DNA of 64,000 nucleotides from Chelativorans xinjiangensis. GTDB lineage: Bacteria > Pseudomonadota > Alphaproteobacteria > Rhizobiales > Rhizobiaceae. Position numbers and translations under genes: made by a program. Below the pieces are notes generated by a model. The model saw only the letters and a list, made by a program, of their open reading frames with translations, made no database searches and was not told where the DNA came from. Positions 33,675-53,561 of the stretch are shown in pieces (positions within the stretch are counted from its first letter, which is position 1; each line of letters starts with the position of its first letter). The stretch spans positions 1 to 64,000 of the forward strand of contig NZ_WQNH01000014.1 in assembly GCF_009812055.1 (NCBI RefSeq), read 5' to 3'.

Positions 33675-33684
33675 GGTGGCGGCC

Positions 33685-34917
33685 CTACCCCGCTCGCGCC
33701 AGCGCCGCAGTGGGTCGGCCGGCGAAGGCGCCCATGCGCGCCCTGTACCAGTTCACGAAATTGCGGATCATGAATTCCGATGGCGCATAGGGGCCCGGGC
33801 GATAGGCGCTCGACCGCACGCCACGGTGGTTGTTCTCGGCAAGCGCGCGGTCCTGGTTGTTTGTGGCTAGCCACACCTTCGTCAGCCGCTCCAGATCGTA
33901 GTCGACGCCTTCGACCGCATCCTCGTGGACGAGCCAGGTCGTACGAACGGCGGTGCGGTCGGCGCAAAGCGGTGTGACGCGGAAATGCAGGATGTGGTCG
34001 GAGAGGAAATGATGCCAGTTGTTCGGCGCGCGGAACATGCGCACCGAGCCGAGGTCCGGGTCCGTGAAGTCGCCGAGGAGCTTTTTGCATGCAGGCTTGC
34101 CGTCCGTCGTGAAGGAGACGGCGCCGCGGTTGAAGGGAAGCCGGATGCAGCGGAATTCGTCGCCGCCCTCGGCAGGCCGGTGCGGCAGTCGGAGTGCCTC
34201 CCACCGCCGCGCCGCATCCTGCATCAGCGCGGCTAACCCCTCCTCCTCTTCGGCATCCTCCGGTAAGGCGAACTCGACCAGCGAAACCAGGAGTTCGGGA
34301 TGGCTGCCGGCGCAGTGGTAGCACTCGCGGTTGTTCTCGATGACGAGCTTCCAGTTCGCCTTCTCGACGATGGTCGAGGTGAAGGCGACCTTCGTGCGGT
34401 CCGGCTGGTGCGGCGCGATATAGGGCGTGACCGCCGCGCGGAAGCCTTCCAAGGCCGGCGGGTCCGGCGCCATCGAAACATAGACGAGCCCGCAGACGAA
34501 CTGCACCGCCACTGGCGCCAGGCCGTAGCGCGAAGTGTCGAAGCCGGCGGGCATTTGGCGCGCATGAAGAAGCCTGCCGTCGAGCCCGTAGACCCACTGG
34601 TGATAGGGGCAGACGAGGCGGCTCGCCGAGCCGGACGCGTCGGTGCAGATGCGCGCGCCGCGATGCCGGCAGGTGTTGTGGAAGGCGCGGATCTCGCCGT
34701 CCGGGCCGCGCAGCACCACGATGGACTCGCGCCCGACCTCCAAGGTCAGATAGTCCCCCGGCCGCGAAATCTCGGCGGCATTGCAGGCGAACAGCCATTC
34801 GCCCCCGAAGATCGCCTGTATGTCGGCCTCGAAGAGGTCGTGGTCGGTATAGAATGCCTGCGGCAGGGAAAAGCCATCGCGGGCTTCGTCCAGCAGGGCG
34901 CGAAGTCGGTTCTTCAT
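33685..34917 (-). CDS. Rieske non-heme iron oxygenase (betaine demethylase type)
   Basis: A 410-residue oxygenase alpha subunit. The Rieske cluster ligands are C83-x-H85 and C103-x2-H106 (C-R-H-R-G, C-P-Y-H-Q-W). The mononuclear iron site is N-N-R-E-C-Y-H-C-A-G-S-H-P-E-L, with H201 and H206. This N-x2-E-C-x-H-C-x3-H pattern is typical of glycine betaine monooxygenase GbcA and stachydrine demethylase, which oxidatively remove one N-methyl group as formaldehyde. Which betaine is used is not visible. It pairs with the reductase gene downstream. The ATG at 34917 is chosen over a longer frame without family similarity. Confidence 0.92.
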   Translation of the reverse strand: MKNRLRALLDEARDGFSLPQAFYTDHDLFEADIQAIFGGEWLFACNAAEISRPGDYLTLEVGRESIVVLRGPDGEIRAFHNTCRHRGARICTDASGSASRLVCPYHQWVYGLDGRLLHARQMPAGFDTSRYGLAPVAVQFVCGLVYVSMAPDPPALEGFRAAVTPYIAPHQPDRTKVAFTSTIVEKANWKLVIENNRECYHCAGSHPELLVSLVEFALPEDAEEEEGLAALMQDAARRWEALRLPHRPAEGGDEFRCIRLPFNRGAVSFTTDGKPACKKLLGDFTDPDLGSVRMFRAPNNWHHFLSDHILHFRVTPLCADRTAVRTTWLVHEDAVEGVDYDLERLTKVWLATNNQDRALAENNHRGVRSSAYRPGPYAPSEFMIRNFVNWYRARMGAFAGRPTAALARAG

Positions 34918-35005
34918 GAGATGTCGCGGTTCCGTATCGGGTTCTATCGTCACGAGCGGAGGATAGTCGCCTGTGAAGTCGGGACTTTCACCTTTCCGAC
35001 AGCTC

Positions 35006-35018
35006 GGATACGGAATAC
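35006..35018. promoter_or_regulatory. GTATTCCGTATCC motif between Rieske and flavoprotein genes
   Basis: A copy of the 13-bp motif (seen as GGATACGGAATAC on the plus strand) lies in the 219-base divergent region, 89 bases before the Rieske gene ATG and 119 bases before the DAO-family gene. One site could control both directions. Confidence 0.5.
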
Positions 35019-35136
35019 GCCAGACGTGCATTCGCAGCCTCTGGTCGCATTTCTAGAGCAAATGGTCGCAAATTCGGTCCTGTAGCGATCCGAAGCTTGG
35101 GAGGATATCCGTCGTTTCGACAATCTGGAGCGACCC

Positions 35137-36480
35137 ATGCCCCCTCAGGTGAAGACGCGCTATGTGATCATCGGCGCGGGAATTCACGGCCTTTCGACCG
35201 CCTACAACCTTGCCCGCATGCTGGAGGCCAAGGGGCGCCGGTCTTCGGCGGAAATCACGGTTCTCGACAAAGGCACGGTCGGCTCCGGCGCCTCCGGCAT
35301 CGCTTGCGGCGTCGTGCGCAACAACTACTACCAGCCGGCCATGCGCGAACTGATGGCGCATTCGGTCGGGGTCTGGGAGAGCGATCCCGAAGCCTACGCC
35401 TATCATCCGGTCGGCTATATGCAGATAAGCCCGGAGGTCATGCGCGAGGACGTCGCCGCCATCTTCGCGCAGCAGCAGGCGATCGGCTACGACTCCGTCT
35501 TCATCGAGGGAGAGCGGGACTGTCACCGCTACATGAGAGGCCTGTTCGAGGACTGGCAGGCGAAGGGCATCACCTCGGTCCTGCACGAAAAGCGCGGCGG
35601 CTATGCCAACAATCTCGCCTCGCTCGGCGGACTTGCCGCCAAGGCGAGGGAGGCCGGCGTGACGATCCGAGAGGGCGTGACCGTCACGGGCTTCGAGTTC
35701 GGGCGACAAAGCGGGGCTGTCGCGGCGGTGAACACGCATGCGGGGCGGTTCGACTGCGACCATGTGGTGATCGGAGCCGGCCCGTGGGTGCGCGATTTCT
35801 GGGCGATGCTCGGCCTGCCGCGCGCGATCCGCGTCAAGGGCCGCGACGGTCGCATGCACGATGATGTGCCGATGTGGCGCTACTGGCAGCTCGAGGAGGG
35901 CGTGCTGGAGGTCGAGCCCGGCTGCCTCGTCACCAATGACGGCGGGATGCCGCCCGTGATCCACCTCGATACCGACGCGCCGCTCTATTCGCAGGCAACA
36001 GGCCGGCTCATCGCCGAGGGATTGTGGGGCGTCTATTACAAGCCGGATTTCAATTTCGGCGGCATTCAGGGCGGTGCCATGCCCTACGAGGTGGGCCTTC
36101 CCGCCGAGGAGGTCGCCGTCGACCCCTACGGCCCCAAGAGCCCGCAATTCGTCGCCTCGGCGGATTTCGCCGACATGTGGACGTCCGCGCTCGCCTTCTG
36201 CCACAAGCGCTTCGAGGGCAAGCACATGCGCTATCGGCGGGAGAGCTCCGGCGGGATCGGCTGCTTCACGCCCGATTCCTTCCCCGTCTTCGACGTCTTC
36301 CGGGAGAATTGCACCGTGATCGCCGACTCCAACCACGGCTACAAGATGCTGGGCGTGGGGGCATTGGTCGCCGGCGAGCTTCTCGGCGAGAAGAGCGCGC
36401 TCCTGGAGCCGTTCCGGATGTCGCGCTATGAGGAAGGCAGGCTGCATCCCGTCTCGCACAGCCCCTTTCCCTGGAGCTGA
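35137..36480 (+). CDS. DAO-family FAD-dependent oxidoreductase
   Basis: A 447-residue flavoprotein related to sarcosine oxidase beta subunit. The dinucleotide-binding motif G-A-G-I-H-G-L-S-T-A-Y is at residues 13-23, with E-I-T-V-L-D-K-G as the second strand, and C-terminal F-T-P-D-S-F-P-V-F-D plus N-H-G-Y-K-M-L-G-V-G is the FAD-closing region. Such enzymes oxidise secondary or tertiary amines. Beside a betaine-demethylase pair it may act on the N-methylated product. The araC-type regulator gene follows it by two bases. Confidence 0.9.
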   Translation: MPPQVKTRYVIIGAGIHGLSTAYNLARMLEAKGRRSSAEITVLDKGTVGSGASGIACGVVRNNYYQPAMRELMAHSVGVWESDPEAYAYHPVGYMQISPEVMREDVAAIFAQQQAIGYDSVFIEGERDCHRYMRGLFEDWQAKGITSVLHEKRGGYANNLASLGGLAAKAREAGVTIREGVTVTGFEFGRQSGAVAAVNTHAGRFDCDHVVIGAGPWVRDFWAMLGLPRAIRVKGRDGRMHDDVPMWRYWQLEEGVLEVEPGCLVTNDGGMPPVIHLDTDAPLYSQATGRLIAEGLWGVYYKPDFNFGGIQGGAMPYEVGLPAEEVAVDPYGPKSPQFVASADFADMWTSALAFCHKRFEGKHMRYRRESSGGIGCFTPDSFPVFDVFRENCTVIADSNHGYKMLGVGALVAGELLGEKSALLEPFRMSRYEEGRLHPVSHSPFPWS

Positions 36481-36482
36481 CG

Positions 36483-37508
36483 GTGGAAGCGGCGCGGGGC
36501 GAGAGTTCGATGATGAACGTCTTCCATCCATCGCTGCGGGTCCAGGCGGAAGACAGGACGCAGGCCTTCGCGCTCCTGCCGGTGCCGAGCTTTTCCATGA
36601 TGAGCCTGTCGGCGGCGATCGAGCCGCTGCGCTCGCTCAACCGACTTTCTGCCAGGCAGGCCTATAGCTGGCGGCTGGTGAGCCCCGAGGGCGGCGAAGT
36701 GGAGGCATCGAACGGCATCGCGGTGAAGACCGTCAGCTACGGGGAAGCGCTGGAGGGTGCCGATCATCTGCTCGTCTGCGGCGGCCCGCCCGTCGATGCA
36801 TCCTACGAACGCGCCTATCTGAAGGTCCTGCGTTACGCGGCGCACAAGGGAATTCCTCTGGGCTCCCTGTCGACGGGCACCTATCTGCTCGCCCGCGCGG
36901 GCCTGCTCGACGGCTATCGCTGCACGATCCACTGGGAGAACCGGACCGCCTTCCAGGAGGATTTCCCGGACATCGAATGCACCAACAATCTCTACGAGAT
37001 CGACCGCGACCGGATGACCTGCTCCGGCGGCACGGCGGCGATGGACCTGATGCTTCACCTGATCGCGGCGCGCCACGGCGAGGAGCTGGCCTGCGCGGTC
37101 GCCAACCAGTTCCACCACGAGCGCATCCGCGGCGACGGGGCGGAGCAGCGCGGCGGGCGCATGGAATTCGTCGAGCGAATGCCCGAGCGCCTGCGCACCG
37201 CCGTCGGCATCATGCGCAGCAACATCGAGGACCCGGTCCCGCTTCCCGCCATCGCCCAGAGGTCCGGAACGAGCTCACGGCAGCTCGAGCGCCTATTCAT
37301 GAGGCATACGGGCCTCACGCCGCACCGCTATTACATGCAGATGCGCCTGGAGCGGGCGCGCGAGCTGCTCATCTATTCCGACCGTCCGATCATCGACATC
37401 GCCGTGCAGACGGGCTTCGCATCCACTTCCTACTTCGCGACCTGCTATCGGCGCGTCTTCGGCGTAAAGCCCTCGGAGGCGCGCGTCCGCAGCACGCTTC
37501 AGGGGTGA
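36483..37508 (+). CDS. GlxA/AraC-family regulator (GbdR-like)
   Basis: A 341-residue regulator with an N-terminal DJ-1/PfpI-like glutamine amidotransferase domain (about 28-195, with G-G-P-P near 100 and a degenerate nucleophile in G-S-L-S-T-G-T-Y-L-L-A-R) and a C-terminal double helix-turn-helix AraC domain (Q-L-E-R-L-F-M-R-H-T-G-L-T-P-H-R-Y, then I-I-D-I-A-V-Q-T-G-F-A-S-T-S-Y-F). This is the layout of GbdR, the activator of glycine betaine and dimethylglycine catabolism. It is transcribed with the DAO-family gene. A GTG at 36483 or an ATG at 36513 may be the start. Confidence 0.9.
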   Translation: MEAARGESSMMNVFHPSLRVQAEDRTQAFALLPVPSFSMMSLSAAIEPLRSLNRLSARQAYSWRLVSPEGGEVEASNGIAVKTVSYGEALEGADHLLVCGGPPVDASYERAYLKVLRYAAHKGIPLGSLSTGTYLLARAGLLDGYRCTIHWENRTAFQEDFPDIECTNNLYEIDRDRMTCSGGTAAMDLMLHLIAARHGEELACAVANQFHHERIRGDGAEQRGGRMEFVERMPERLRTAVGIMRSNIEDPVPLPAIAQRSGTSSRQLERLFMRHTGLTPHRYYMQMRLERARELLIYSDRPIIDIAVQTGFASTSYFATCYRRVFGVKPSEARVRSTLQG

Positions 37509-40362: not shown

Positions 40363-41139
40363 ATGAACAGTGGGGAAGTCACGAAGCCGCGCGCCCGCTC
40401 CAGCCCCGAAGTCCGCTTCGATGGGGGGCGCCACCATCGCGCCAGGCTGGGTTTCGTCGTGCTGGCGATGGAGCAGACGGTGGAAAGCGACATGTTCGCC
40501 CTGGTGCCGCCCGGCGTCGGCGTCCACTTCTCCCGCGCGGCGATGGCCAACCGCATCGACGTCGCCACGCTTCTGGAGATGGCGGAAGGCATCGGCGAGG
40601 CGGCCGCGCTCCTGCTCCCCGACCGGCAACCAGACGTCGTGTGCTATGCATGCACCTCGGGCAGCGTCGTCATCGGCGAGGAGCGTGTGTTCGCCGAACT
40701 CCGCCGTGGCGCGCCCAAGGCCCGCGCCACGTGCCTGATCAGCTCGGTCATGCAGGCGCTCCGTGCCGTGGGGGCCAGGAAGGTTGCAGTCGCGACCCCC
40801 TATCTCGACCCCGTCAACGAGATCGAACGTGTCTATCTCGAGAGGAACGGCTTCGAGATCGTCAACATGGAGGGGCTCGGCATCGAGAACGATGCGGACA
40901 TGGCACGCCTTGCACCGGATTTCATCGCTGAGTTCGCCCGCTACGTGGACCGCGCTGAGGCCGATGCCCTGTTCGTCAGTTGCGGTGCGTTGCGCGCCGT
41001 CGAGATCATCGATGGACTCGAGGCCCAGTTGAACAAGCCGGTTATCACCAGCAACCAGGCTATGCTATGGAACTGTCTGAGATTGGCAGGGGTGCACGAC
41101 CGGATGCCCCGCCATGGCCAGTTGCTCCGGGACCACTGA
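40363..41139 (+). CDS. Asp/Glu racemase-superfamily enzyme (maleate isomerase/arylmalonate decarboxylase type)
   Basis: A 258-residue enzyme. The characteristic nucleophilic cysteine sits in C-Y-A-C-T-S-G-S (C97), as in maleate cis-trans isomerase and arylmalonate decarboxylase. A second conserved cysteine is in F-V-S-C-G-A-L-R. The substrate should be a short dicarboxylate or related acid. I start it at the ATG at 40363 because GGAGG lies five bases upstream; ATG 40351 and GTG 40336 are alternatives. It diverges from the creatinase-like gene and overlaps the downstream gntR gene by 26 bases. Confidence 0.85.
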   Translation: MNSGEVTKPRARSSPEVRFDGGRHHRARLGFVVLAMEQTVESDMFALVPPGVGVHFSRAAMANRIDVATLLEMAEGIGEAAALLLPDRQPDVVCYACTSGSVVIGEERVFAELRRGAPKARATCLISSVMQALRAVGARKVAVATPYLDPVNEIERVYLERNGFEIVNMEGLGIENDADMARLAPDFIAEFARYVDRAEADALFVSCGALRAVEIIDGLEAQLNKPVITSNQAMLWNCLRLAGVHDRMPRHGQLLRDH

Positions 41140-41851
41140 TTTGCAGGATCACGCTACACAGGCCCGTCCTTCGCGGAAGAGCAAGGGTGCCGCGCAGCGG
41201 TTCCCGGCGCCGCGTGGCCAGGCTCCCGACATCCATCGCGCCTTGCGCGAACGGATCTGCCTGCTGCGCTATCCACCGGGCACACTGCTCGTGGAGACGA
41301 CGCTCGCCAACGAGTTCCAGGTCAGCCGCACGCCAATCCGGCAGGCGCTGCAGCGGCTGGTCTATGAGGGACTAGCGGAGACGAGGAACGGCGTCGGCAC
41401 GAGCGTGACCGGCGTCGACTTCCCCGAGTTCAAGGAGATCTATGCCTTCAGGCTGCGGCTGAGCGAGATGATCGGCGACTTCAGCTCGCTTGACGGCGTG
41501 CCTGAAGCGTTGGAGCGGATCGAGGGCCTCATACCCCGCGTCGAGGCGCTCAAGGGCTCGCAGAACTTCGAGGAGTTCTGGGCGGTCAACCACGAACTGC
41601 AGTTCGCCACCAACAGCCTGATTGCGAACGCCTCCTTAAAGGAGGTCCACGACAGGCTCTATTTCCAGGCGTCGCGGGTCTGGTACAGCTTCGTCGACAA
41701 GATGTGGGAAGAGGAGGTCGATTTCCTGCTCGAAGAGCTGTTGGAGCATCGCCGAGCGCTGCGCGCGGGCGACCTGCGCGCAGTCGGATTCATCCAGCGC
41801 AACCACATCGCCTTCGGCCTGTCGCGCGTGGCAAGATATGTCTCAGGCTGA
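41114..41851 (+). CDS. GntR-family regulator, second copy
   Basis: A 245-residue GntR regulator. The winged helix is at about 40-105 (I-H-R-A-L-R-E-R-I, V-S-R-T-P-I-R-Q-A-L-Q-R-L, G-V-G-T-S-V). The helical C-terminal domain is FCD-like but less conserved. The first 35 residues are a basic, disordered tail. It is co-transcribed with the racemase-superfamily gene and probably senses that enzyme's substrate or product. Its end overlaps the convergent prpD-type gene by nine bases. Confidence 0.9.
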   Translation: MASCSGTTDLQDHATQARPSRKSKGAAQRFPAPRGQAPDIHRALRERICLLRYPPGTLLVETTLANEFQVSRTPIRQALQRLVYEGLAETRNGVGTSVTGVDFPEFKEIYAFRLRLSEMIGDFSSLDGVPEALERIEGLIPRVEALKGSQNFEEFWAVNHELQFATNSLIANASLKEVHDRLYFQASRVWYSFVDKMWEEEVDFLLEELLEHRRALRAGDLRAVGFIQRNHIAFGLSRVARYVSG

Positions 41852-43352: not shown

Positions 43353-44543
43353 CTATTCATTCCGGACAATAGCGCCGTCTTTCATGACAAAGATCGGCCG
43401 ACGCAGTGCTCCGATAGCGTTCAGGGGATCGTCGGTGAAAGCCACGACGTCGGCGCGCTTGCCGATTTCGAGGCTGCCCAGTTCCTTTTCCAGGCCCATG
43501 AGCTCAGCTGCGATCAAGGTGGCCGAACGTATGGCTTCCACGGGCTGGTAGCCTGCCTCCTCCACCATGACCTCCAACTCGAACAGATTGTCGCCGCAGT
43601 GGCATCCCGGAGCCCCCACGTCCGAGCCCATCGCCACCTTGACGCCACGCTCGCGAGCGAGCTTCAGATTGGCGACCTTGATCTTATGCGCCTTCTCCTT
43701 GCGTTCGCGAATGTGCGGTGGAACGTCCCTTGCAAAGGTTTCGTCCCCGAGCAGGCCAGGCGTAGTGCACAACGTGGGCACCAGATAGGTTCCGCGCTCG
43801 ACCATCAGATCGAATATATCGGCCGAACCATAGGTCCCATGCTCAATACTGTGGCAACCGCATTCGACGGCGTTGCGAATGGCCTTGTTCGCATGTGCGT
43901 GTGCGGCAACATGGGTGAAGTTGTCCTCAGCGATTTCGACGGCGGCGCGGATTTCGTCGGGGCGGTATTGGATGGCATCCGCCCTTTCGTATCTTGACGA
44001 CTGAAGCGAGCCGGAAGCGAGTATCTTGATGAGATTGGCCCCTTTGGCAAACTGCTTGCGCGCCGCCGCTCGAACCGCCTCCGGCCCATCCGCCTCCTCA
44101 TACATGCCCGCAAAGTAAGGGGTGGTGGAGGAGGTGATCGTAAGGATCCTGCCTGAGCAGAACAGGCGAGGACCCTCGATCCAGCCTGCATCGATCGCAT
44201 CGCGCACTGCGATCTCGTGATAGTCCCAGCCGCCCACCTCGCGGGCCGTCGTCACGCCTGCGTGCAGCATCCGTTTTGCGGCCCGCACTCCCCAGATGGC
44301 AATGGTGCCAGGCAATACATCGCGCCAGGGATTGTGCGGATTGGCATTGTCCGACTTGACGCAGATATGCACATGACAATCGATGAACCCTGGGAAGAGA
44401 TAGCGGCCATCCAGATCGACAACCTCTGCCCCCTGGTTGGGCGCGCGCGCGACATCGGCGATGCGACCGTCCTCCACCAAGATATCGGCATTCCGGTATT
44501 CGCCGGTATTGGCGTCGAAGATTCGGCCGGATTTGAGCCACAT
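43353..44543 (-). CDS. Metal-dependent amidohydrolase (imidazolonepropionase/prolidase-like)
   Basis: A 396-residue amidohydrolase of the COG1228 group. The H-x-H metal motif is in F-I-D-C-H-V-H-I-C near 55. A probable carbamylated lysine is in the G-A-N-L-I-K-I block, followed by histidines in H-A-H-A, H-S-I-E-H-G-T-Y and the aspartate of G-S-D-V-G-A-P-G. Relatives hydrolyse cyclic amides, N-acyl or Xaa-Pro/Xaa-Arg dipeptides. The ATG at 44543 begins M-W-L-K-S-G-R-I-F-D-A-N-T-G. Its promoter region carries two GACA-N4-TGTC palindromes shared with the flavoprotein gene. Confidence 0.9.
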   Translation of the reverse strand: MWLKSGRIFDANTGEYRNADILVEDGRIADVARAPNQGAEVVDLDGRYLFPGFIDCHVHICVKSDNANPHNPWRDVLPGTIAIWGVRAAKRMLHAGVTTAREVGGWDYHEIAVRDAIDAGWIEGPRLFCSGRILTITSSTTPYFAGMYEEADGPEAVRAAARKQFAKGANLIKILASGSLQSSRYERADAIQYRPDEIRAAVEIAEDNFTHVAAHAHANKAIRNAVECGCHSIEHGTYGSADIFDLMVERGTYLVPTLCTTPGLLGDETFARDVPPHIRERKEKAHKIKVANLKLARERGVKVAMGSDVGAPGCHCGDNLFELEVMVEEAGYQPVEAIRSATLIAAELMGLEKELGSLEIGKRADVVAFTDDPLNAIGALRRPIFVMKDGAIVRNE

Positions 44544-44623
44544 GAAAATCCCTCCTGTTTTGCCGTGGGTGAGCCGAAAGAACGCAGAACTGCACGCCTG
44601 CCGGGCACCATTCGACACTACTT

Positions 44624-44635
44624 GACATATGTGTC
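44624..44635. promoter_or_regulatory. GACA-N4-TGTC operator, copy 1
   Basis: GACATATGTGTC, embedded in a larger imperfect palindrome from CTTGAC to GTCAAG, 81 bases before the amidohydrolase ATG. TTGACA at 44622-44627 is also a consensus -35 hexamer on the plus strand. Confidence 0.55.
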
Positions 44636-44650
44636 TAGTCAAGCAATTCT

Positions 44651-44663
44651 GTATTCAGTATTC
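44651..44663. promoter_or_regulatory. GTATTCAGTATTC motif in the divergent promoter
   Basis: A one-mismatch relative of the 13-bp motif lies between the two GACA-N4-TGTC palindromes, so two regulatory systems may meet here. Confidence 0.4.
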
Positions 44664-44678
44664 AGCGTAGTGCACACG

Positions 44679-44690
44679 GACATATCTGTC
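44679..44690. promoter_or_regulatory. GACA-N4-TGTC operator, copy 2
   Basis: GACATATCTGTC, with flanks CG and GAGTCCG extending the symmetry (CGGAC to GTCCG). It is 55 bases from copy 1, close to five helical turns, and 89 bases before the flavoprotein ATG. Confidence 0.55.
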
Positions 44691-44778
44691 GAGTCCGTTG
44701 GCGCAGTGATGTTCCGGACGGGTGAACGGACTCCCTCAAAGGCCCGCGAACCCCCACAATCCAGGCTTGGGGATGCCA

Positions 44779-46350
44779 ATGAGAAGTAGCGATATTGATG
44801 TTGTGGTCGTCGGCTACGGGTATGCCGGTGCGGCCGCGGCGCTTTCCGCCGCCAGCAGCGGTGCCCGCGTGCTGCTCCTGGAAAAGGCAGCAACGCCGGG
44901 GGGTATCTCGATCTGTTCAGGTGGCGGCGTTCGCGCCGCGACGGATGAGGACAACGCATTTGCCTATTTGAAGGCCACTTGCGCGGGAAAAACCCCGGAC
45001 CCGATATTGCGTCGGCTCGCCGAGGGCATGGTCAGGATGCGCGAGACACTCACCGGATTCGCGCGGGTCAACGGCGCCGTGGTCGCGCAGCGCGTGTATC
45101 CCGGCAATTATCCCTTGCCCGGCACGGGGTCTCTTGGCTCGATGTTCATCGAGAGCATACCGAATTTCGACCCCGCCGTGTCTTATCCGCATGTAAGGGG
45201 CTCCGCCGAGAACGGGGCGCTGCTGTTCAAGGTCATGGAGGACAATGTCTCCGCCAATACGGATAAGATCGAGGTCGTGACGAACTGCGCCGCCAGGCGT
45301 CTGCGCCGGACCGACAGCGGTGCCTTGCAGCTTGAACTCGCCGGCGGCACAACCGTCGCACCCAGGGGGGGCATTATCCTTGCCTGCGGTGGTTTTGAAG
45401 CCGATGCCGAGCTTCAAGCGCAATACTGGCCCGGCGGACCAGCCCTTCCATGCGGCTATAGGCACAATACCGGTGACGGTCTGCGCATGGCGCAAGCACT
45501 CGGGGCGGGCCTATGGCATATGTGGCACTACCACGGATCCTACGGCTACCGACTTCCTGATCCTAGCTACCCATACGGGATCCGCGTGAAGTCTCTTCCC
45601 AATTGGTGGTCGATCGACAATCCCCACATTCCCAAAATGGTTTGGATTCTGCTGGACTGCTACGGCCGGCGCTTCATGAACGAGTACGAGCCATACGGCC
45701 AGGACACGGGGCACCGCCCTCTCGCTCACTTCGACCCGGCAACGCAATCCTATCCGCGCAAGCCATCCTACTTGGTGACGAACGAGGCAGGACGCCTGCT
45801 CTACCCGCTAGGTCGCCCAATCCGGAACGACCCTGAGGTGAGCTACGAATGGAGCCGCGACAACAGCCGCGAGATTGCCAGCGGCCTCTTCCGGAAGGCG
45901 GCAACCGTGGAGGAACTCGCGAGCCTGATTGATGCCGACCCGCAGGTGGTCGCTAACAGCATTGACCGGTGGAACTCCGCCTGCGCCAACGGGCTTGATC
46001 CGGAATTCGGCCGTCCCCCGAATTCAATGCATCCCCTGCGGGAGCCGCCGTTCTACGTCGCCGAGGTTCACCAGATCGTCTCGAACACGCAAGGCGGCCC
46101 GTTGCGTGACGAGGAGCAGCGCGTCCTCGACGCCTTTGGTGATCCGATTCCGGGCCTTTATGTGGCGGGAGAGTGCAGCAGCGCGTTCGGCCATCTCTAT
46201 CTGGGCAGCGGAAATGTCACCGAATGCTTCGTGAGCGGCGAGATAGCGGGCCGGAACGCCGCACGGTTCCGCTGGGAAGACAAAGTTGAGCAAGTCGGCT
46301 CCGCTTTCAGCCGTTTGCGAGCGCGCGAGCGGTCTCGTGCGACTTGGTGA
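44779..46350 (+). CDS. FAD-dependent fumarate reductase/ketosteroid dehydrogenase-like flavoprotein
   Basis: A 523-residue flavoprotein of the fumarate reductase/KstD superfamily. The N-terminal FAD motif is V-V-G-Y-G-Y-A-G-A-A-A-A-L-S-A, followed by L-L-L-E-K-A; P-R-G-G-I-I-L-A-C-G-G-F-E lies near 200, and the C-terminal G-L-Y-V-A-G-E-C-S-S-A-F-G-H-L-Y-L-G-S-G-N block closes the FAD site. It has no signal peptide or heme motif. The substrate is unknown. ATGs at 44773 and 44779 are both possible starts. The dimethylglycine dehydrogenase-like gene follows in the same direction. Confidence 0.88.
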   Translation: MRSSDIDVVVVGYGYAGAAAALSAASSGARVLLLEKAATPGGISICSGGGVRAATDEDNAFAYLKATCAGKTPDPILRRLAEGMVRMRETLTGFARVNGAVVAQRVYPGNYPLPGTGSLGSMFIESIPNFDPAVSYPHVRGSAENGALLFKVMEDNVSANTDKIEVVTNCAARRLRRTDSGALQLELAGGTTVAPRGGIILACGGFEADAELQAQYWPGGPALPCGYRHNTGDGLRMAQALGAGLWHMWHYHGSYGYRLPDPSYPYGIRVKSLPNWWSIDNPHIPKMVWILLDCYGRRFMNEYEPYGQDTGHRPLAHFDPATQSYPRKPSYLVTNEAGRLLYPLGRPIRNDPEVSYEWSRDNSREIASGLFRKAATVEELASLIDADPQVVANSIDRWNSACANGLDPEFGRPPNSMHPLREPPFYVAEVHQIVSNTQGGPLRDEEQRVLDAFGDPIPGLYVAGECSSAFGHLYLGSGNVTECFVSGEIAGRNAARFRWEDKVEQVGSAFSRLRARERSRATW

Positions 46351-46425
46351 GTGAGCCATAGGCGATAGCTGCCTTTCGAGCGGCTGTATGGCGGTCGAGC
46401 GGTGAGCCTTAGTTCCGGAGGGCAC

Positions 46426-48834
46426 ATGAAACACTACCGCGCAATCGTGATCGGCGGCGGCGTCGTCGGAGCATCGGTGCTCTATCACCTGGCGAAGTTG
46501 GGGTGGACGGATGTCGCGTTGATCGAGCGCAACGTTCTGACGGCCGGTTCGAGCTGGCACGCAGCGGGTGGATTCCATGCCCTGAACGCCGATCCCAACA
46601 TCGCCGCGCTGCAAGCCTATACGATCGATCTTCTTTCGGAAGTCGAGCGGGAATCCGGTCAGAATATCGGCATGCACATGACCGGAGGCATATCGATCGC
46701 ATCGGCACCGGAGCGCTGGACGTGGCTCAAGGCCTCCTACCGCGTCTTCCAGACAATGGGCATCGAGGACGTATATCTGGTGGGCGCCGACGAGATAGGG
46801 AAGCTCTGTCCGATCCTCGACACCGATGGAGTCCTGGGAGGGCTATACGCGTCACGGGAAGGCCACATCGACCCGTCGGGAACGGTCCACGCCTATGCCA
46901 GGGCTGCCAAGCTGCGCGGCGCCGACATTATCGAGCACAACCGGGTCCTGGAACTGAACCGGCGCAGCGACGGCAATTGGGATGTCGTCGCGGAGAAAGG
47001 CACCGTCGTGGCCGAGCATGTCGTCAACGCCGGAGGCCTCTGGGCCAAACAGGTCGGCCGCATGGCGGGCATCGACCTGCCCGTCTCGCCGCTGGAGCAC
47101 CACTATCTCGTCACCGAAGCCCTTCCCGAGATTGGGGCGCTTGAACGCGAGCTACCTCTCGTCGTCGACCTCGAGGGCTTCACTTATATGCGGCAGGAGC
47201 AGAAGGGGCTGCTCCTCGGCATCTATGAGATCCAGCACAAGCACTGGAACATGGATGGCGCGCCGTGGGACTACGGCATTGAGCTCATTCAGGAGGACAC
47301 CGATCGGATCGCCGACGAGCTGGCGCTCGGGTTCAGCAGATATCCCTGCTTGGAGAGGGCTGGCATCAAGCGGTGGGTGAACGGCGCCTTCACCTTCTCA
47401 CCCGACGGCAATCCGCTCGTCGGGCCTGTGCGCGGCGTTCCGAACTACTGGGTCGCGTGCGGCGTCATGGCCGGCTTTCTGCAAGGGGGCGGCGTCGGCA
47501 AATCGCTCGCCGAATGGATGGTCCACGGCGAGCCGGAGGTCGACGTCTACGGCATGGACATCGCGCGCTACGGCGCCTTCGCATCGAACCGCGAATATGT
47601 CCGGCAGACGACGGGGCAGTTCTATTCCCGGCGCTTCGTCATGAGCTATCCGAACGAGCAGCTTCCTGCCGGACGGCCTCGGCGCATGGCAGGCGCGCAT
47701 GACGCCATGGACGCGGCAGGTGCCCGCTGGGGCAGCGTATGGGGGATGGAAGTTCCCCTTTATTTCGCGCCGAAGGATTTTTCCGAAACGCCGACGCTCA
47801 ACCGCTCGAACGCCTTCGACATCGTCGGCGAGGAGTGTCGCAGCGTGCGCGAGGGCGTCGGCATCCTCGATATCACGGCCTTCTCCAGGTACGAGATCAC
47901 CGGCCAGCAAGCCGAGGCATGGCTCGACCGGCTGCTTGCCTGCCGTCTCCCGAGGCCGGGGCGGGCAAAGTTGGCGCCCATGTTGAAGCCGAACGGCAAG
48001 CTGCATGGCGATCTCACGGTCTTCAACTGGGGCGGCGGCAAATGGTGGATCATGGGATCTTACTATTTGCGCGAGTGGCATATGCGCTGGTTTGAAAAGC
48101 ATTTGGCCAAAGGTGTCGCCATACGCGACATTTCGGACGCGGTTGTCGGACTCTCGCTCTCTGGGCCGAATTCCCGCAAACTCTTGCAGCGTCTCACGCA
48201 CCAGGACATCTCCCACGAGACGCTGGGCTTTATGGGGTGCACGGAGGTGGATGTCGGGCTGATCCGGGCCAAGGTCGGACGGCTCTCCGTGACGGGCGAA
48301 CTCGGCTATGAGATCCATTGCCAAGCCAATGAGCACGCGACGCTTAGAAGGACATTGCTGGAGGCGGGCAAGGACCTCGAGGCGCGGGAATACGGATTCA
48401 ACGCACTGAACGCGCTTCGGCTGGAGAAGAGCTTCGGCATATGGTCGCGTGAATTTACCCAGGAATACACCCCCGGCATGACCGGAATGCACCGCTGGAT
48501 CGCATTCGACAAGGGCGATTTCATTGGCAGGCAGGCCGCCTTGGACGAGAGGTGTGCCGGCCCTTCCAGGCTGCTGGTCACGCTCGAAGTCGACGCAAAG
48601 GATGCGGACGCCAGCGGATACGAGCCCGTTTGGCGCAACGGCGAGCGGATCGGGTTCGTCACATCGGGCGGCTATGGCCATACGATCGGCAAGAGCCTGG
48701 CAATGGCGCTTGTAGATTGGGAAGCCTCCGAGACCGGCCTCGAGCTGACGGCCCATATCGTGGGTGTCGAGCGGAGCGCCCGGATAATCCCGCCGTCCCC
48801 CTACGATCCGGAAGGCCTGAAGATGCGCGCGTGA
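46426..48834 (+). CDS. Dimethylglycine/sarcosine dehydrogenase-like protein
   Basis: An 802-residue fusion of an N-terminal DAO-type FAD domain and a C-terminal GcvT-like tetrahydrofolate domain. The FAD motif is I-G-G-G-V-V-G-A-S at the N-terminus. H45 in S-S-W-H-A-A-G-G corresponds to the histidine that holds FAD covalently in mammalian dimethylglycine dehydrogenase. The folate domain (from about 430) includes L-D-I-T-A-F-S-R-Y-E and G-E-L-G-Y-E-I-H. It should oxidatively demethylate an N-methylated glycine and pass the one-carbon unit to tetrahydrofolate. The ATG at 46426 has GGAGG upstream. Confidence 0.93.
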   Translation: MKHYRAIVIGGGVVGASVLYHLAKLGWTDVALIERNVLTAGSSWHAAGGFHALNADPNIAALQAYTIDLLSEVERESGQNIGMHMTGGISIASAPERWTWLKASYRVFQTMGIEDVYLVGADEIGKLCPILDTDGVLGGLYASREGHIDPSGTVHAYARAAKLRGADIIEHNRVLELNRRSDGNWDVVAEKGTVVAEHVVNAGGLWAKQVGRMAGIDLPVSPLEHHYLVTEALPEIGALERELPLVVDLEGFTYMRQEQKGLLLGIYEIQHKHWNMDGAPWDYGIELIQEDTDRIADELALGFSRYPCLERAGIKRWVNGAFTFSPDGNPLVGPVRGVPNYWVACGVMAGFLQGGGVGKSLAEWMVHGEPEVDVYGMDIARYGAFASNREYVRQTTGQFYSRRFVMSYPNEQLPAGRPRRMAGAHDAMDAAGARWGSVWGMEVPLYFAPKDFSETPTLNRSNAFDIVGEECRSVREGVGILDITAFSRYEITGQQAEAWLDRLLACRLPRPGRAKLAPMLKPNGKLHGDLTVFNWGGGKWWIMGSYYLREWHMRWFEKHLAKGVAIRDISDAVVGLSLSGPNSRKLLQRLTHQDISHETLGFMGCTEVDVGLIRAKVGRLSVTGELGYEIHCQANEHATLRRTLLEAGKDLEAREYGFNALNALRLEKSFGIWSREFTQEYTPGMTGMHRWIAFDKGDFIGRQAALDERCAGPSRLLVTLEVDAKDADASGYEPVWRNGERIGFVTSGGYGHTIGKSLAMALVDWEASETGLELTAHIVGVERSARIIPPSPYDPEGLKMRA

Positions 48835-49059
48835 TGCGCCATGCATGCCGCCGCGCATCGGCCTCTCGGACGTTGTCTGGCGTTGAGCGGAGGCGTGCCG
48901 TCTCCAGTCGCGAAAGCGCCCATCCGTCCCCAAACCTGCCAAAGAGCATTCGGCCACCGGCCACGATCAATGGCGACCTCGCCGCACATGCCCTATGCGA
49001 TGAGCAGGCTTCACTGGGCAACTCATCGATTGAACCCGTATTGAAAGTAGCTATCATCT

Positions 49060-49072
49060 GGATACGGAATAC
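49060..49072. promoter_or_regulatory. GTATTCCGTATCC motif before the CapA-like gene
   Basis: A copy of the 13-bp motif (GGATACGGAATAC on the plus strand) ends 18 bases before the likely ATG of the CapA-like gene, so it could lie over the transcription start or the leader. The rest of the 256-base gap (48835-49090) shows no gene. Confidence 0.5.
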
Positions 49073-49090
49073 GATCATTTGGAGATGGAC

Positions 49091-50404
49091 ATGTTGTATG
49101 AGGCGGAAAGCGGGAACCTGAGCTTGGTCGCAGTGGGCGACGCGATAGTTGGTCGGCGGCTGTCGATACATGGTGAGGAACGATTCAAGGCTGTGATCGA
49201 CCGCATCCGGCAAGCAGACGTTTCCTTCGCCAATCTGGAAGTGCTCATCAACGACTTCGAAGGCTTTCCTTCCGAGCACAGCGGCGGAACCTATATGGCA
49301 ATGCCCTCTTTCATCGCCGAGGAAATGAAGTGGGCAGGTTTCAATCTCTTATCTCGCGCCAACAATCATGCCATGGATTTTTCGCACGGCGGGTTGGCGG
49401 CCACGTCCCGTCACCTCGACGCTCAAGGTCTGGCTTATTCGGGTGTCGGGGAAAACCTCGCCAAAGCTCGCAGCCCCGCCTATCTGGACACTCCCAGGGG
49501 CCGTATCGCCCTGCTCTCGATTTGCTCCACCTGTCCGCCGGGGTCGCGGGCGGGCCAGCAGCGACCGGACATGCAGGGGCGGCCCGGAATCAGCGGGCTG
49601 CGGCACAAGAAGAGATTTGTCGTACCGGTAGAGCAAATCGACGCGTTGCGGCGCATCGGAAGCAGCATCGGATTGGAAGAATCTGAACCGGCAACGACAG
49701 AACGCGGCGACTCCGAGGCTAAGCTCGGTCGGTACGATTTCCTCGGCCACGAGTTCATTTCCGGCGAAAATCCCGGCGCATGCAGCGAGCCGGATGCTTC
49801 AGACCTTCAGGCGATGATCAAGGGCATTGAAGCGGCAAAACGCCAGGCTGATTTCGTGTTTGTCAGTCTTCATCATCACGAGACCGATGATGCGATAGAA
49901 AATCCAAGCCAATTCGTGCGGACCTTCGCGAGAGCGTGCATCGACGCGGGGGCGCACGCAATTCTTGGCCACGGCCCTCACATTCTCCAGGGCGTCGAGA
50001 TCTATTCCGGATGTCCGATCTTCTACAGCCTGGGAAACTTCATCTATCAGAGCCAGACCATCGAATATCTTCCTGCGGATGTCTACGAACAGCACGGGCT
50101 CGATGAGCTCCGGGGGCTTCCGGCGGATACGTCCGACGCCCGCATGTGGGATTACGGCCTGCGGCGTGACCCGCGCTGGTGGCACACGATTATCGCGCGC
50201 TGCGATTTCGAAGCAGGCAAATTGGCAAGGCTGTTCCTCTATCCCGTTGAACTCGGCCAGCATGCGCACCGGGCACAGCAGGGGCGACCGATGGTCGCGC
50301 GCAACGGGAAGGCGGAGGACGTCGTTCGAGAGCTGGAACAACTGTCGCAGCAGTTTGGTACCAGGGTAAGGTTTGAAGACGGGGTAGGCGTTGTTGCATT
50401 GTAA
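49091..50404 (+). CDS. CapA-family metallophosphoesterase-like protein
   Basis: A 437-residue protein of the CapA/PgsA (PGA_cap) family with a calcineurin-like fold. The expected ligands are seen: A-V-G-D near 15, N-L-E near 47, A-N-N-H-A-M-D near 92, the double histidine of S-L-H-H-H near 258, and G-H-G-P-H near 293. Members take part in poly-gamma-glutamate capsule synthesis, but soluble members like this, with no membrane anchor or signal peptide, are of unknown function and probably hydrolytic. The ATG at 49091 has GGAG six bases upstream. The upstream 13-bp motif ties it to the catabolic genes. Confidence 0.85.
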   Translation: MLYEAESGNLSLVAVGDAIVGRRLSIHGEERFKAVIDRIRQADVSFANLEVLINDFEGFPSEHSGGTYMAMPSFIAEEMKWAGFNLLSRANNHAMDFSHGGLAATSRHLDAQGLAYSGVGENLAKARSPAYLDTPRGRIALLSICSTCPPGSRAGQQRPDMQGRPGISGLRHKKRFVVPVEQIDALRRIGSSIGLEESEPATTERGDSEAKLGRYDFLGHEFISGENPGACSEPDASDLQAMIKGIEAAKRQADFVFVSLHHHETDDAIENPSQFVRTFARACIDAGAHAILGHGPHILQGVEIYSGCPIFYSLGNFIYQSQTIEYLPADVYEQHGLDELRGLPADTSDARMWDYGLRRDPRWWHTIIARCDFEAGKLARLFLYPVELGQHAHRAQQGRPMVARNGKAEDVVRELEQLSQQFGTRVRFEDGVGVVAL

Positions 50405-50444
50405 GGAACCTACGCCAGCGGATTCAACCTCGGCACGGGCGGAT

Positions 50445-51060
50445 TCAGCAATCCAACACCACGTCTGACTTCGGCTTGCTACAGCAGGGCAGGATCCAGT
50501 CCCATTCGATTTCCCGTGCCTTTATCCCAATCGATCCAGGTCGTAGTCGATGCCTTCCATCGCGTCCTTGTGGACAAGCCAACGCGTCCGGACCAGCGTT
50601 TGCCGAGGAGCTAGCGGAAGGATGAACGTGGTGACCGCATGGTCGCCACGGAAGTGTTTCCACGAGTTGAGTGACAAGAAGTGGAAGTCTCCGAAGCGCT
50701 TCTGGGGGACGCTCCCGAGCGGCTTTTCGCAGGCGGCGCGTGTATCGATCGTCAACGACTCCCGCGCACCCGCGATGGCGAAACGCTCTGTGCGGAAAGG
50801 TGTCGCGCACCCGGTCATCTCTTCGACAAGCTTCGAGGGAACGCCGGCTTTCTCCCACCGTTTGATTTCAACCAGGGCTGGTCGGGGTTGACCGGCGGGC
50901 TGGAAGCATCCGGCCAATTGGTGGGGGTCTTGCAGCACGCCCACAAGCCGGAGGGATGCTTTTACTGCGTGGTCGCGGATGGCCGAAGAGTTCATGGGAT
51001 GGTGCATAGATTTTGCGAGTGGCTGCAGTGCGAAGCACACACCTCTTCGACAATCTGATC
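50445..51060 (-). pseudogene. Remnant of a second Rieske oxygenase-reductase pair
   Basis: On the minus strand one frame encodes part of a Rieske oxygenase catalytic domain (R-F-G-D-F-H-F-L-S-L-N-S-W-K-H-F, then V-R-T-R-W-L-V-H-K-D-A-M-E-G-I-D-Y-D-L-D-R-L). It runs straight into the end of a ferredoxin domain in another frame (W-I-L-P-C-C-S-K-P-K-S-D-V-V-L-D-C, ending at 50445). The Rieske cluster domain, the oxygenase C-terminus and nearly all of the reductase are missing. Gene order is that of the intact pair at 32613-34917, so a deletion of about 1-2 kb fused the two remains. Confidence 0.75.
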
Positions 51061-51168
51061 GACGGCTCGATAATCGGCATTCTGAGCAGTCTGGCTTCGA
51101 GCCTTGCCGATTGCTCGTCTTGATCGAAGGGCTGCTGCCACGCCGGTGCAGCCCGTGATCGGCTCTCG

Positions 51169-51196
51169 ATGTACTAGACATTGATGTCTAGTACAT
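51169..51196. promoter_or_regulatory. GACA-N4-TGTC operator, copy 3, upstream of mttB-like gene
   Basis: Arms ATGTACTAGACA and TGTCTAGTACAT are perfectly complementary over 12 bp around a TTGA spacer. The site is 51 bases before the methyltransferase ATG. Size and symmetry fit a TetR-family dimer, and a tetR-type gene follows the methyltransferase. Confidence 0.7.
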
Positions 51197-51246
51197 GTAT
51201 CTTCATTTTTGAAGACCGTTGAACTGCGGCAAGGGGTGAGTGCCCG

Positions 51247-52800
51247 ATGGCGAGCGACTCCGAGGGCGGACAACAGCAGGAGCGAAGACGCCGACGTCGG
51301 AGTTCTGACAGCATACCGGCAGTCCGCACAACTGGCTATAAAGCCCTGCGCAATCCATTTAAGCCGCAGCCCATCTTCTCAGCAGATCAGATCGAGGCCA
51401 TTCACCATTCAGCCGTGAGAATTCTGAAGGACCTCGGCATCAGGATCCTTCTTCCCGAGGCGCGTGAGATTTTTCGCTCCATCGGGTGCTGCGTCGATGA
51501 GGAGAGCCTTCTCGTCCGCATAGGACCGGAGGCTGTGGCCGATGCGCTTTCCTGCTCACCGAAGTCCATTTCCGCGAAAGCGGGCAGCCGCCAACGCGAC
51601 TCCGTATTTGAGCACGGGACGCTGGCTTTCGTGGCCGGTTGCGGCGCGCCGAACGTGACGGATCTCGACCGCGGCCGCCGCACGGGGATGCTTGCCGATT
51701 TCGAGGACCTCGTGCGCCTTGCGCAGCATTTCGACGTCCTGCATCTACATGGACCATATGTGGAGCCGCAGGATCTCGAACTGCCCGTTCGCCACTACGG
51801 AACGATGCGCGCACAACTCACGCTCTCCGACAAGCTGCCGTTCATCTTCTCACGCGGGACGCCGCAGGTGGAAGATTGCTTCGAGATGGTTCGTCTGGCG
51901 CGTGGACTTTCACGGGAAGAGTTCCGCGACGGCGTCCACTGCTACACGATCGTGAACACCAACTCGCCGCGCCAGCTCGACGTGCCGATGGCGCAAGGCA
52001 TCATCGACTTTGCCAGGGCCGGGCAGGCCTCGATCATCACACCATTTTGCCTGGCAGGCGCCATGGCGCCAATCACCGTTGCTGGTGCGCTCGCGCTGCA
52101 GCATGCCGAAGCGCTCGCAGGTATTGTTCTGGCTCAGGCAAGCCGGAAGGGAGCGCCGGTCATATACGGAAGCTTCTCATCGAATGTCGACATGAAGTCG
52201 GGGGCACCGGCCTTCGGTACGCCCGAGCACGTGAAGGCAACGCTCGGCGCGGGGCAGCTCGCCAGATATATCGGCCTTCCCTGGAGGGCGGGCGGCGGCA
52301 GCGCATCGAACGACGCCGATGCGCAAGCCGCGAACGAAACGCAGTTCGCGCTTTGGGGAGCGGTGCTGGCTGGCGCAACCGTGCTCGTGCATGCCGCCGG
52401 ATGGCTCGAAGGCGGCCTCAGTGTTTCCTATGAAAAGCTAGTTACCGATGTTGAAGTCCTCCAAGGGATGGCCGAGCTCTTCTCGGCACCACCGGGAGAT
52501 GAGGAGGCTATCGGCTATGATGCCGTCGCCGATGTCCAGCCGGGCGGGCACTTCTTCTCGACGCCGCACACCATGGGCCGCTTTCGGACGGCGTTCTACG
52601 AGCCAATTGTTGCGGACTGGTCTAACTTCGGCAACTGGACCGAGTCAGGAAGCTTGAATGCGACGCAGCGGGCAAACCTCGTCTGGAAGAAGGTCCTCGT
52701 CGATTTCGAGCCTCCCGCGTCTGCTGCGGCCGCCGGAGAAGTGCTCGACGCGTTCATCGCACCACGCATTGCGGAGGGAGGGGCCCCGCCGATTTCCTGA
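51247..52800 (+). CDS. Trimethylamine methyltransferase (MttB) family protein, non-pyrrolysine
   Basis: A 517-residue MttB-superfamily protein with an N-terminal basic tail (R-R-R-R-R-R) and a TIM-barrel core. Family blocks include P-F-K-P-Q-P-I-F-S-A-D-Q-I-E near 38, I-L-K-D-L-G-I-R-I near 58, C-G-A-P-N-V-T-D near 130 and G-G-S-A-S-N-D-A-D-A-Q-A near 348. There is no in-frame amber codon, so it is a non-pyrrolysine member; characterised ones (MtgB, MtpB) demethylate glycine betaine or proline betaine with a corrinoid protein. No corrinoid-binding gene is nearby. It is likely co-transcribed with the tetR gene. Confidence 0.9.
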   Translation: MASDSEGGQQQERRRRRRSSDSIPAVRTTGYKALRNPFKPQPIFSADQIEAIHHSAVRILKDLGIRILLPEAREIFRSIGCCVDEESLLVRIGPEAVADALSCSPKSISAKAGSRQRDSVFEHGTLAFVAGCGAPNVTDLDRGRRTGMLADFEDLVRLAQHFDVLHLHGPYVEPQDLELPVRHYGTMRAQLTLSDKLPFIFSRGTPQVEDCFEMVRLARGLSREEFRDGVHCYTIVNTNSPRQLDVPMAQGIIDFARAGQASIITPFCLAGAMAPITVAGALALQHAEALAGIVLAQASRKGAPVIYGSFSSNVDMKSGAPAFGTPEHVKATLGAGQLARYIGLPWRAGGGSASNDADAQAANETQFALWGAVLAGATVLVHAAGWLEGGLSVSYEKLVTDVEVLQGMAELFSAPPGDEEAIGYDAVADVQPGGHFFSTPHTMGRFRTAFYEPIVADWSNFGNWTESGSLNATQRANLVWKKVLVDFEPPASAAAAGEVLDAFIAPRIAEGGAPPIS

Positions 52801-52904
52801 GTTCCCACGCGAGTTGCGCAGATAGCGTCATGCCGGACCAAGCCGCGCTTCCCCAGCGACGATGGGGGTTTGATTTGCGTGATCAACCGTGGCATTTCAC
52901 GCCA

Positions 52905-53561
52905 ATGAGCGATATCAGTACAGACTCTCCGATCGCCAACGGAAACATCAAGGCGACCAAGCAAGACTGGATAAATGCCGCGCTCGACGCGTTGATCTCC
53001 GATGGAGTCGAAAGCGTTCGCGTGCAGACGTTGGGACATAAGCTGGGTGTCTCCCGGTCGAGCTTCTACTGGTACTTCAAGAGCAGACAGGATTTGCTGG
53101 ATCAGTTGCTCGACTATTGGCGGGTAAAGAATACGCGCGTCATAGTCGAACGAACTCGGCGGCCCTCACGGGTCATTGTTCGCGGGGTACTCAACGTTTT
53201 TGAATGCTGGGTCAATGATCAGCTTTTTGACCCGCGGCTTGACTTTGCAATTCGGGCATGGTCGCGCAAGTCCGGCTCCGTCCGGCGCGCCATCGATCAG
53301 GCCGATGATGAGAGGGTCGACGCCATTCGGCAAATGTTTGCGCGCCACGGCTATTCGGACGAGGATGCCTTCGTTCGGGCCCGGGTGCTGTACTACATGC
53401 AGATCGGTTATTATGCACTTGAGCTCCGCGAGTCCATGGAAAGCCGCCTGTCGCATGTGGAGGCCTACCTCCGGGCGTTCACCGGAGAGGAGCCGGCCCG
53501 GGACGACCTCGAATCCTTCCGCCGCCATGTCCAAGCCTCGGCAACAAGCGAGAGCAGCTAG
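52905..53561 (+). CDS. TetR-family transcriptional regulator
   Basis: A 218-residue TetR regulator. The helix-turn-helix is at about 12-58 (W-I-N-A-A-L-D-A-L-I-S-D-G, then V-R-V-Q-T-L-G-H-K-L-G-V-S-R-S-S-F-Y-W-Y-F-K-S-R-Q-D-L-L). The rest is a helical ligand domain. It follows the mttB-like gene by 104 bases, and a 28-bp palindrome of TetR type lies before mttB. It is the natural candidate for binding the three GACA-N4-TGTC sites. The ATG at 52905 is chosen. Confidence 0.92.
   Translation: MSDISTDSPIANGNIKATKQDWINAALDALISDGVESVRVQTLGHKLGVSRSSFYWYFKSRQDLLDQLLDYWRVKNTRVIVERTRRPSRVIVRGVLNVFECWVNDQLFDPRLDFAIRAWSRKSGSVRRAIDQADDERVDAIRQMFARHGYSDEDAFVRARVLYYMQIGYYALELRESMESRLSHVEAYLRAFTGEEPARDDLESFRRHVQASATSESS

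Follow-up and report, generated by a model that had tools for sequence, protein, structure and literature searches.

Palindromes with the core GACA-N4-TGTC occur in a 64,000-nucleotide stretch of DNA from Chelativorans xinjiangensis (contig NZ_WQNH01000014.1, positions 1 to 64,000; this whole stretch is called the window below), both before a gene for a corrinoid methyltransferase of the MttB family and in a divergent promoter shared by an amidohydrolase gene and a flavoprotein gene. This raises the question of which protein reads them, and which genes are brought under one control. The gene following mttB encodes a TetR-family regulator (52830-53561, forward strand), and we consider it probable that this protein is an autoregulated repressor of stepwise betaine demethylation, with the palindromes as its operators.

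Palindromic sites in the window and in the genome

Three palindromes were located at the places given for them in an earlier note on this DNA. Operator 1 (51169-51196; ATGTACTAGACAT-TG-ATGTCTAGTACAT) is a 28-bp palindrome before mttB-tetR, the arms of which are perfect over 13 bp, compared with the 12 bp given in that note; a promoter-like TAGACA-17-TATCTT (51175-51203) overlaps it, and the site is also referred to by the start of its 20-bp form, 51173. Operator 2 (44620-44639; ACTTGACATATGTGTCTAGT) is situated in the amidohydrolase/flavoprotein divergent promoter and is symmetric at 8 of 10 half-site positions. The borderline candidate operator 3 (44675-44694; CACGGACATATCTGTCGAGT) follows operator 2 at the 55 bp previously reported, and is symmetric at 5 of 10 positions (the GACA core and one base). 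A fourth core match at 57114, within the prpF coding region, was regarded as a decoy.

The core was matched four times in the window against 0.54 times in shuffles (none of 100 shuffles reached four). In the 5.69 Mb genome of the window's strain, to which all whole-genome counts refer, it was matched 87 times (about one match expected per 64 kb) against 31 times for its reversed control, a nearly threefold excess. The earlier note had asked whether many unrelated sites of equal quality exist in the genome: they do for the core, which because of these 87 matches does not discriminate and was rejected as stand-alone evidence, but the extended 20-bp form ACTNGACANNNNTGTCNAGT was matched exactly only at 44620 and 51173. 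Allowing up to two mismatches added one genomic match of ACTNGACANNNNTGTCNAGT, with two mismatches, at C28:72634, which gave three in all compared with 15 for the reversed control, while the operator pattern of the TetR family recovered the same two sites and one further match at C108:17207 (control: 1).

For comparison with relatives, the best 80 of 210 loci carrying a related tetR were sampled (61-70% identical; 75 of the 80 named Mesorhizobium), and 46 dereplicated representatives (flanks less than 92% identical) were drawn from them as the basis of the linkage and de novo motif tests. A symmetric 20-bp model, fitted to the 220-bp regions ahead of tetR from these representatives with neither a consensus nor the window as input, yielded the motif TCTGGACAYATRTGTCCAGA (full form TCTGGACA[CT]AT[GA]TGTCCAGA), which was estimated to be present in 93% of the regions. 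Its top three positions in the window were 44620 (23.8), 51173 (23.2) and 44675 (14.9), and scores as high as these occurred in 0, 0 and 1 of 100 simulated windows, respectively. A first matrix, constructed from 67 distinct 32-mers from 75 loci and not including the window sequence, had the same top three (51173, 33.9; 44620, 23.3; 44675, 7.9), a ranking that is partly circular since the sites of this matrix were chosen by a window-inspired consensus. Of 100 simulated windows, 0, 0 and 6 attained these scores, respectively, the largest simulated score being 15.1, and C28:72634, which scored -2.9, was rejected as a regulon member. On the strength of both sets of simulated windows, 44620 and 51173 are secure and 44675 is borderline. 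Site 44675 is somewhat favoured by the frequent occurrence of operator pairs in this family: at least two first-matrix sites were present in 36 of the 46 representatives, spaced 14 bp in 16 and 21 bp in three, with most of the others flanking tetR on both sides.

The TetR protein as predicted binder

The regulator gene follows mttB, as the earlier note had described, beginning 29 bp after it on the same strand, and its product carries the TetR_N domain (PF00440; 42.1 bits, cut-off 24). The true start may lie further downstream, matches of relatives mostly beginning near residues 25-38. A structure model whose overall confidence was low (mean pLDDT 60.8) placed helices at residues 44-58, 65-72 and 76-82, the last of which is the modelled recognition helix.

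A predicted operator stands at the promoter of mttB-tetR itself (51169-51196), and tetR-linked palindromes were found in the relatives as well. By an eye-derived consensus 77 of the 80 loci, and by the first matrix 79, had their best match beside tetR, both counts being partly circular. When the window's half-site ACTAGACAT was used by itself, the best 20-mer of the locus lay beside tetR in 40.8 of the 46 representatives (ties shared), compared with a mean of 6.3 and a 95th percentile of 17.8 for 120 shuffled half-sites on the same loci. For 47 more distant tetR loci, the best half-site match was found by tetR in 20.2 (about 60 shuffles: mean 6.1, maximum 13.1). The link between the TetR gene and the palindrome proposed by the earlier note is supported, and it is seen again both within Mesorhizobium and among members of several other families.

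Covariation of operator and recognition helix is the pattern that reading of the palindrome by the TetR protein should produce, and it was assessed in 54 tetR proteins (the window's, seven of the 80 and 46 others). The site search demanded an ACA-N4-TGT core, an operator class was called at 12 or more of 14 half-site positions, and L194, with the recognition helix ARAS, was put in the class 'other'. Proteins with an RSS helix (18 including that of the window) had CTRGACA half-sites in 12 of 18 cases and CATACA in none, those with RGS had CATACA in eight of eight and CTRGACA in none, and the two RTSFYG proteins both had ACGACA, in helix and operator classes that were defined after the data had been seen and that follow the tetR tree rather than representing independent events. 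Six RSS loci (L142, L192, L195, L196, L197 and L200) had no near site; in five of them an operator was present further off, upstream of DMGDH (the gene of a dimethylglycine dehydrogenase-like enzyme) or soxB by position, and in L192 no operator was found near tetR or further off. The different operator CATACA-N4-TGTATG characterizes a TetR branch of eight loci (L143, L201, L204, L206, L207, L209, L214 and L215), in five of which (L143, L201, L206, L207 and L215) MttB adjoins tetR.

The core matches could in principle be chance palindromes of a GC-rich genome, in line with the 87 matches and the prpF decoy. We consider this highly improbable, as it is contradicted for 44620 and 51173 by the de novo motif and is at odds with the rarity of the extended motif, the linkage of the half-site to tetR and the helix covariation. 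Another regulator of the cluster might also bind the palindromes, with tetR as a bystander: genes for a GntR-type protein (41114-41851) and for an AraC-type protein (36483-37508) resembling GbdR, a choline metabolism regulator (NF052371, below cut-off), are both present. The palindrome nevertheless stays by tetR in the 80 loci, where the window GntR protein had no match at E 1e-10 and the GbdR-like protein a single match (36%), and differences in the operator go along with those in the recognition helix of TetR. These two proteins were judged unlikely binders, and we assign the bystander explanation a low probability. The TetR protein is the likely binder because the de novo motif from the regions ahead of tetR ranks the three window sites top and operator variants follow its recognition helix, and binding to 51173 and 44620 is predicted with high confidence.

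Genes beside the operators and the predicted pathway

The mttB gene (51247-52800, forward strand, no in-frame stop) encodes a protein matching PF06253 with 608.7 bits over its full length (positions 3-500 of 500) and resembling a glycine betaine methyltransferase (PDB 9yce, 7.3e-80), a likeness that does not fix the substrate. The DMGDH gene (46426-48834, forward strand; domains DAO, FAO_M, GCV_T and GCV_T_C) encodes a protein matching dimethylglycine dehydrogenase (PDB 4pab, 1.1e-167), the activity of which is predicted.

Among the 80 tetR loci, 53 contained DMGDH, 44 MttB and 31 both SoxB and SoxA, and 74 had at least one of these four. The combinations were DMGDH with MttB (32 loci), SoxB, SoxA and aldehyde dehydrogenase with DMGDH (20) or without it (10), MttB alone (11) and aldehyde dehydrogenase alone (4); one locus had SoxB, SoxA, DMGDH and MttB, and two had none. 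SoxB and SoxA of locus L036 exceeded their curated cut-offs. Coupling of DMGDH and MttB under the operator, as the earlier note had suggested, was seen again in Mesorhizobium and several other families, as predicted control. A strict family pattern was run on 12 genomes chosen by us among the 80 loci, and four of these (G061, G062, G071 and G072) had an operator ahead of a DMGDH-MttB operon that is separate from tetR, the 17-kb stretches around these operons containing no tetR match. G062 contained two more operators, the first between the divergent DAO and M19-dipeptidase genes, in their promoter, and the second ahead of an ABC transporter of the oligopeptide type; in G072 the operators were placed alike with respect to the dipeptidase and transporter genes, with DAO about 2 kb away and another stretch between. 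M. ciceri WSM1271 likewise has operators at tetR, ahead of a DMGDH-MttB operon and at the promoter of DAO and the M19 dipeptidase. Two Mesorhizobium genomes also had two family operators each (L154, 6959 and 8269; L155, 7064 and 8356), which precede a gene for an M19 dipeptidase and an ABC transporter of the oligopeptide type, respectively, with a Rieske oxygenase and a DAO gene nearby.

Outside the 80 loci, MttB, DMGDH or SoxB/SoxA accompanied tetR in eight of 11 loci with 46-61% identity (L191-L200 and L142), none of them being found in the loci L192, L198 and L199. DMGDH and/or MttB occurred with operators in L142, L191, L193, L194, L195 and L197, the operator standing upstream of DMGDH-MttB-tetR in L142, L195 and L197, and by position upstream of soxB-soxA in L196 and L200. 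The 47 distant tetR loci contained MttB in 11, DMGDH in six and a GbcA-like Rieske gene in nine cases. Judged from these predicted gene functions, the common theme of the regulon is that betaines and the products formed from them would lose their N-methyl groups, and a role in betaine-type demethylation appears fairly likely.

In the proposed mechanism, a TetR dimer would sit on ACTRGACAY-NN-RTGTCYAGT-like sites and block transcription, the site before mttB-tetR providing autoregulation and the site pair before the flavoprotein and DMGDH genes acting on a promoter that the divergent amidohydrolase gene would share. An inducer, most likely a betaine or an N-methyl breakdown product (candidates being glycine betaine, dimethylglycine and sarcosine, or one of their close analogues), would release TetR. 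MttB would then pass one methyl group of a quaternary amine on to a stand-alone corrinoid protein whose gene lies elsewhere in the genome, and the next methyl group would be taken off oxidatively by DMGDH, onto folate. If the repressor is conserved and its operator can be read, the MttB, DMGDH and sarcosine oxidase copies that act jointly could be listed for each genome, and the inducer would become directly testable. A wider and distinctly tentative reading is that this TetR subfamily is, across many families of the order, a dedicated and undescribed repressor of quaternary-amine N-demethylation (targets: MttB, DMGDH and sarcosine oxidase, with Rieske oxygenases in deeper branches) having at least four operator classes that follow the recognition helix, and that it here took over an amidohydrolase and a flavoprotein releasing or preparing a betaine.

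The amidohydrolase gene (43353-44543, reverse strand; Xaa-Pro dipeptidase/arginine carboxypeptidase-like) is divergent from that of the FAD_binding_2 flavoprotein (44773-46350, forward strand; fumarate/urocanate reductase-like, rare elsewhere), which ends 75 bp before the DMGDH start on the same strand, the flavoprotein and DMGDH genes lying behind 44620 and 44675. In a survey of 397 genomes of the order, in which the top few candidates per genome were scored, relatives of the flavoprotein were present in six at E<=1e-40, the window's genome included, and relatives of the amidohydrolase in the window's genome alone at E<=1e-80. As relatives are this rare in the order, it is the window by itself that places the two genes in the circuit. 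Four of the five flavoprotein loci besides the window's (L138-L141; G299 left out) had no match to the window TetR, and their best first-matrix scores were -7.7, -3.4, 8.5 and 2.7, respectively, the site scoring 8.5, which is some 7 kb away from the gene of the flavoprotein, being taken as chance. The 6.8-kb contig with the best flavoprotein relative (56%) contained no TetR match and no operator.

TetR might accordingly bind here while its control of the amidohydrolase and flavoprotein genes is incidental, the operator pair being that of the DMGDH promoter and the two genes having no metabolic connection. The rarity of their relatives fits this explanation, as does the position of the operator directly upstream of DMGDH in four loci (L150-L153), but a same-strand flavoprotein gene ending 75 bp ahead of DMGDH, together with an amidohydrolase gene sharing the promoter, is an arrangement usual for co-regulated enzymes; on balance we find incidental control conceivable and rather doubtful. 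Of the single circuit of four genes and the possible single pathway envisaged in the earlier note, the supported part is that of MttB and DMGDH, which recur with the operator and which the comparison tentatively connects to a betaine, dimethylglycine and sarcosine pathway. The amidohydrolase and flavoprotein are tied to the circuit by their position in the window, and their membership of the pathway did not find support in the comparison; that they belong to it seems slightly short of an even prospect.

Beyond the partial circularity of the first-matrix results and the retrospective helix classes, a number of results weigh against an autoregulated TetR repressor of betaine demethylation. A sigma-70-like pair was sought at 44620 and not found. 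Taking the most self-complementary 20-mer per tetR gave mixed palindromes, among which the three window sites ranked 48, 264 and 1733, and the de novo fitting was run after this naive attempt. Some shuffled half-sites scored high (maximum 32.7 of 46), and the unrelated, AT-richer locus L140 scored 8.5 with the first matrix, above the 7.9 of 44675. Other RTS relatives were mixed (10 of 25 reached TTGACA or TGTACA, and two of 25 CTRGACA). The strict family pattern gave 26 matches in the 12 genomes against 9 for its reversed control, so that some single sites are due to chance; any of MttB, DMGDH or a GbcA-like gene was present in 22 of the 47 distant loci; and the regulon is not regularly accompanied by the amidohydrolase and flavoprotein, relatives of which are rare at the thresholds used.

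Known systems and neighbouring genes

BetI is a TetR-family repressor of the genes that convert choline to glycine betaine, and the window TetR resembles it in family, in the connection to quaternary-amine metabolism and in its expected action as a repressor, but differs in adjoining demethylation genes. Identity with BetI was rejected (TIGR03384, 20.9 bits against a cut-off of 201.3), the window protein being a TetR-family member by domain and not BetI by score. GbdR is an AraC-type activator of glycine betaine catabolism, with a regulon that covers the dimethylglycine and sarcosine steps. Its regulon is paralleled by the GbdR-like gene (36483-37508) near GbcA/GbcB-like genes and by the kind of genes found beside the window TetR, while the regulator belongs to another family and the TetR-linked genes would use the MttB route. 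The heterotetrameric sarcosine oxidase operon (soxB, soxA) is comparable in that soxB and soxA stood by tetR in 31 of the 80 loci, but neither was found above cut-off among the annotated genes of the window.

It was recently shown that aerobic bacteria demethylate glycine betaine by the corrinoid system MtgBCD (PMC12478193), with which the window's genome shares an MttB-family enzyme, a stand-alone corrinoid protein and DUF1638; the accessible part of that paper names no TetR-type regulator, and the substrate of the window MttB is suggested by likeness only. The function of mttB in Mesorhizobium was called unknown in the part available of another study (PMC4302635). The TetR gene blr7984 of Bradyrhizobium (PMC5017801, as far as its accessible text goes) was rejected as the same system, as it belongs to a glutathione transferase cluster with other gene content. 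Among the matches listed, no rhizobial TetR protein that controls MttB, DMGDH or sox genes appeared in open-access titles or the starts of abstracts, a coverage outside which most subscription journals fall.

The candidate for the stand-alone corrinoid protein, with B12-binding and B12-binding_2 domains, is encoded on contig C64 beside DUF1638, none of the genome's PF02310 matches being on the window's contig. A second MttB gene of the genome adjoins a second DMGDH-like gene (L189; G000:C31, 8499-12914), and no operator was found in the 17-kb stretch around this pair; a CobB/CobQ-like gene is located about 2.6 kb from it.

Between DMGDH and mttB in the window lie a gene for a PGA_cap (CapA-type) protein (49079-50404, forward strand) and an open frame on the reverse strand (50525-51181), the first codons of which lie inside operator 1. 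The frame matches a GbcA-like Rieske oxygenase over about a quarter of the model (NF058607, 7e-26, model positions 253-361 of 420) as well as PDB 3vca and 4qup (E about 2e-18), and is probably a gene remnant. A second cluster for quaternary-amine demethylation, of the Rieske type, is located at 32613-37508 and comprises a GbcA-like oxygenase (516.7 bits, cut-off 670), a GbcB-like reductase (214 bits, cut-off 500), a DAO oxidoreductase and the GbdR-like AraC gene (NF052371, 327.7 bits, cut-off 480). Since GbdR-like and GbcA/GbcB-like genes occur together there, the window may hold two parallel routes.

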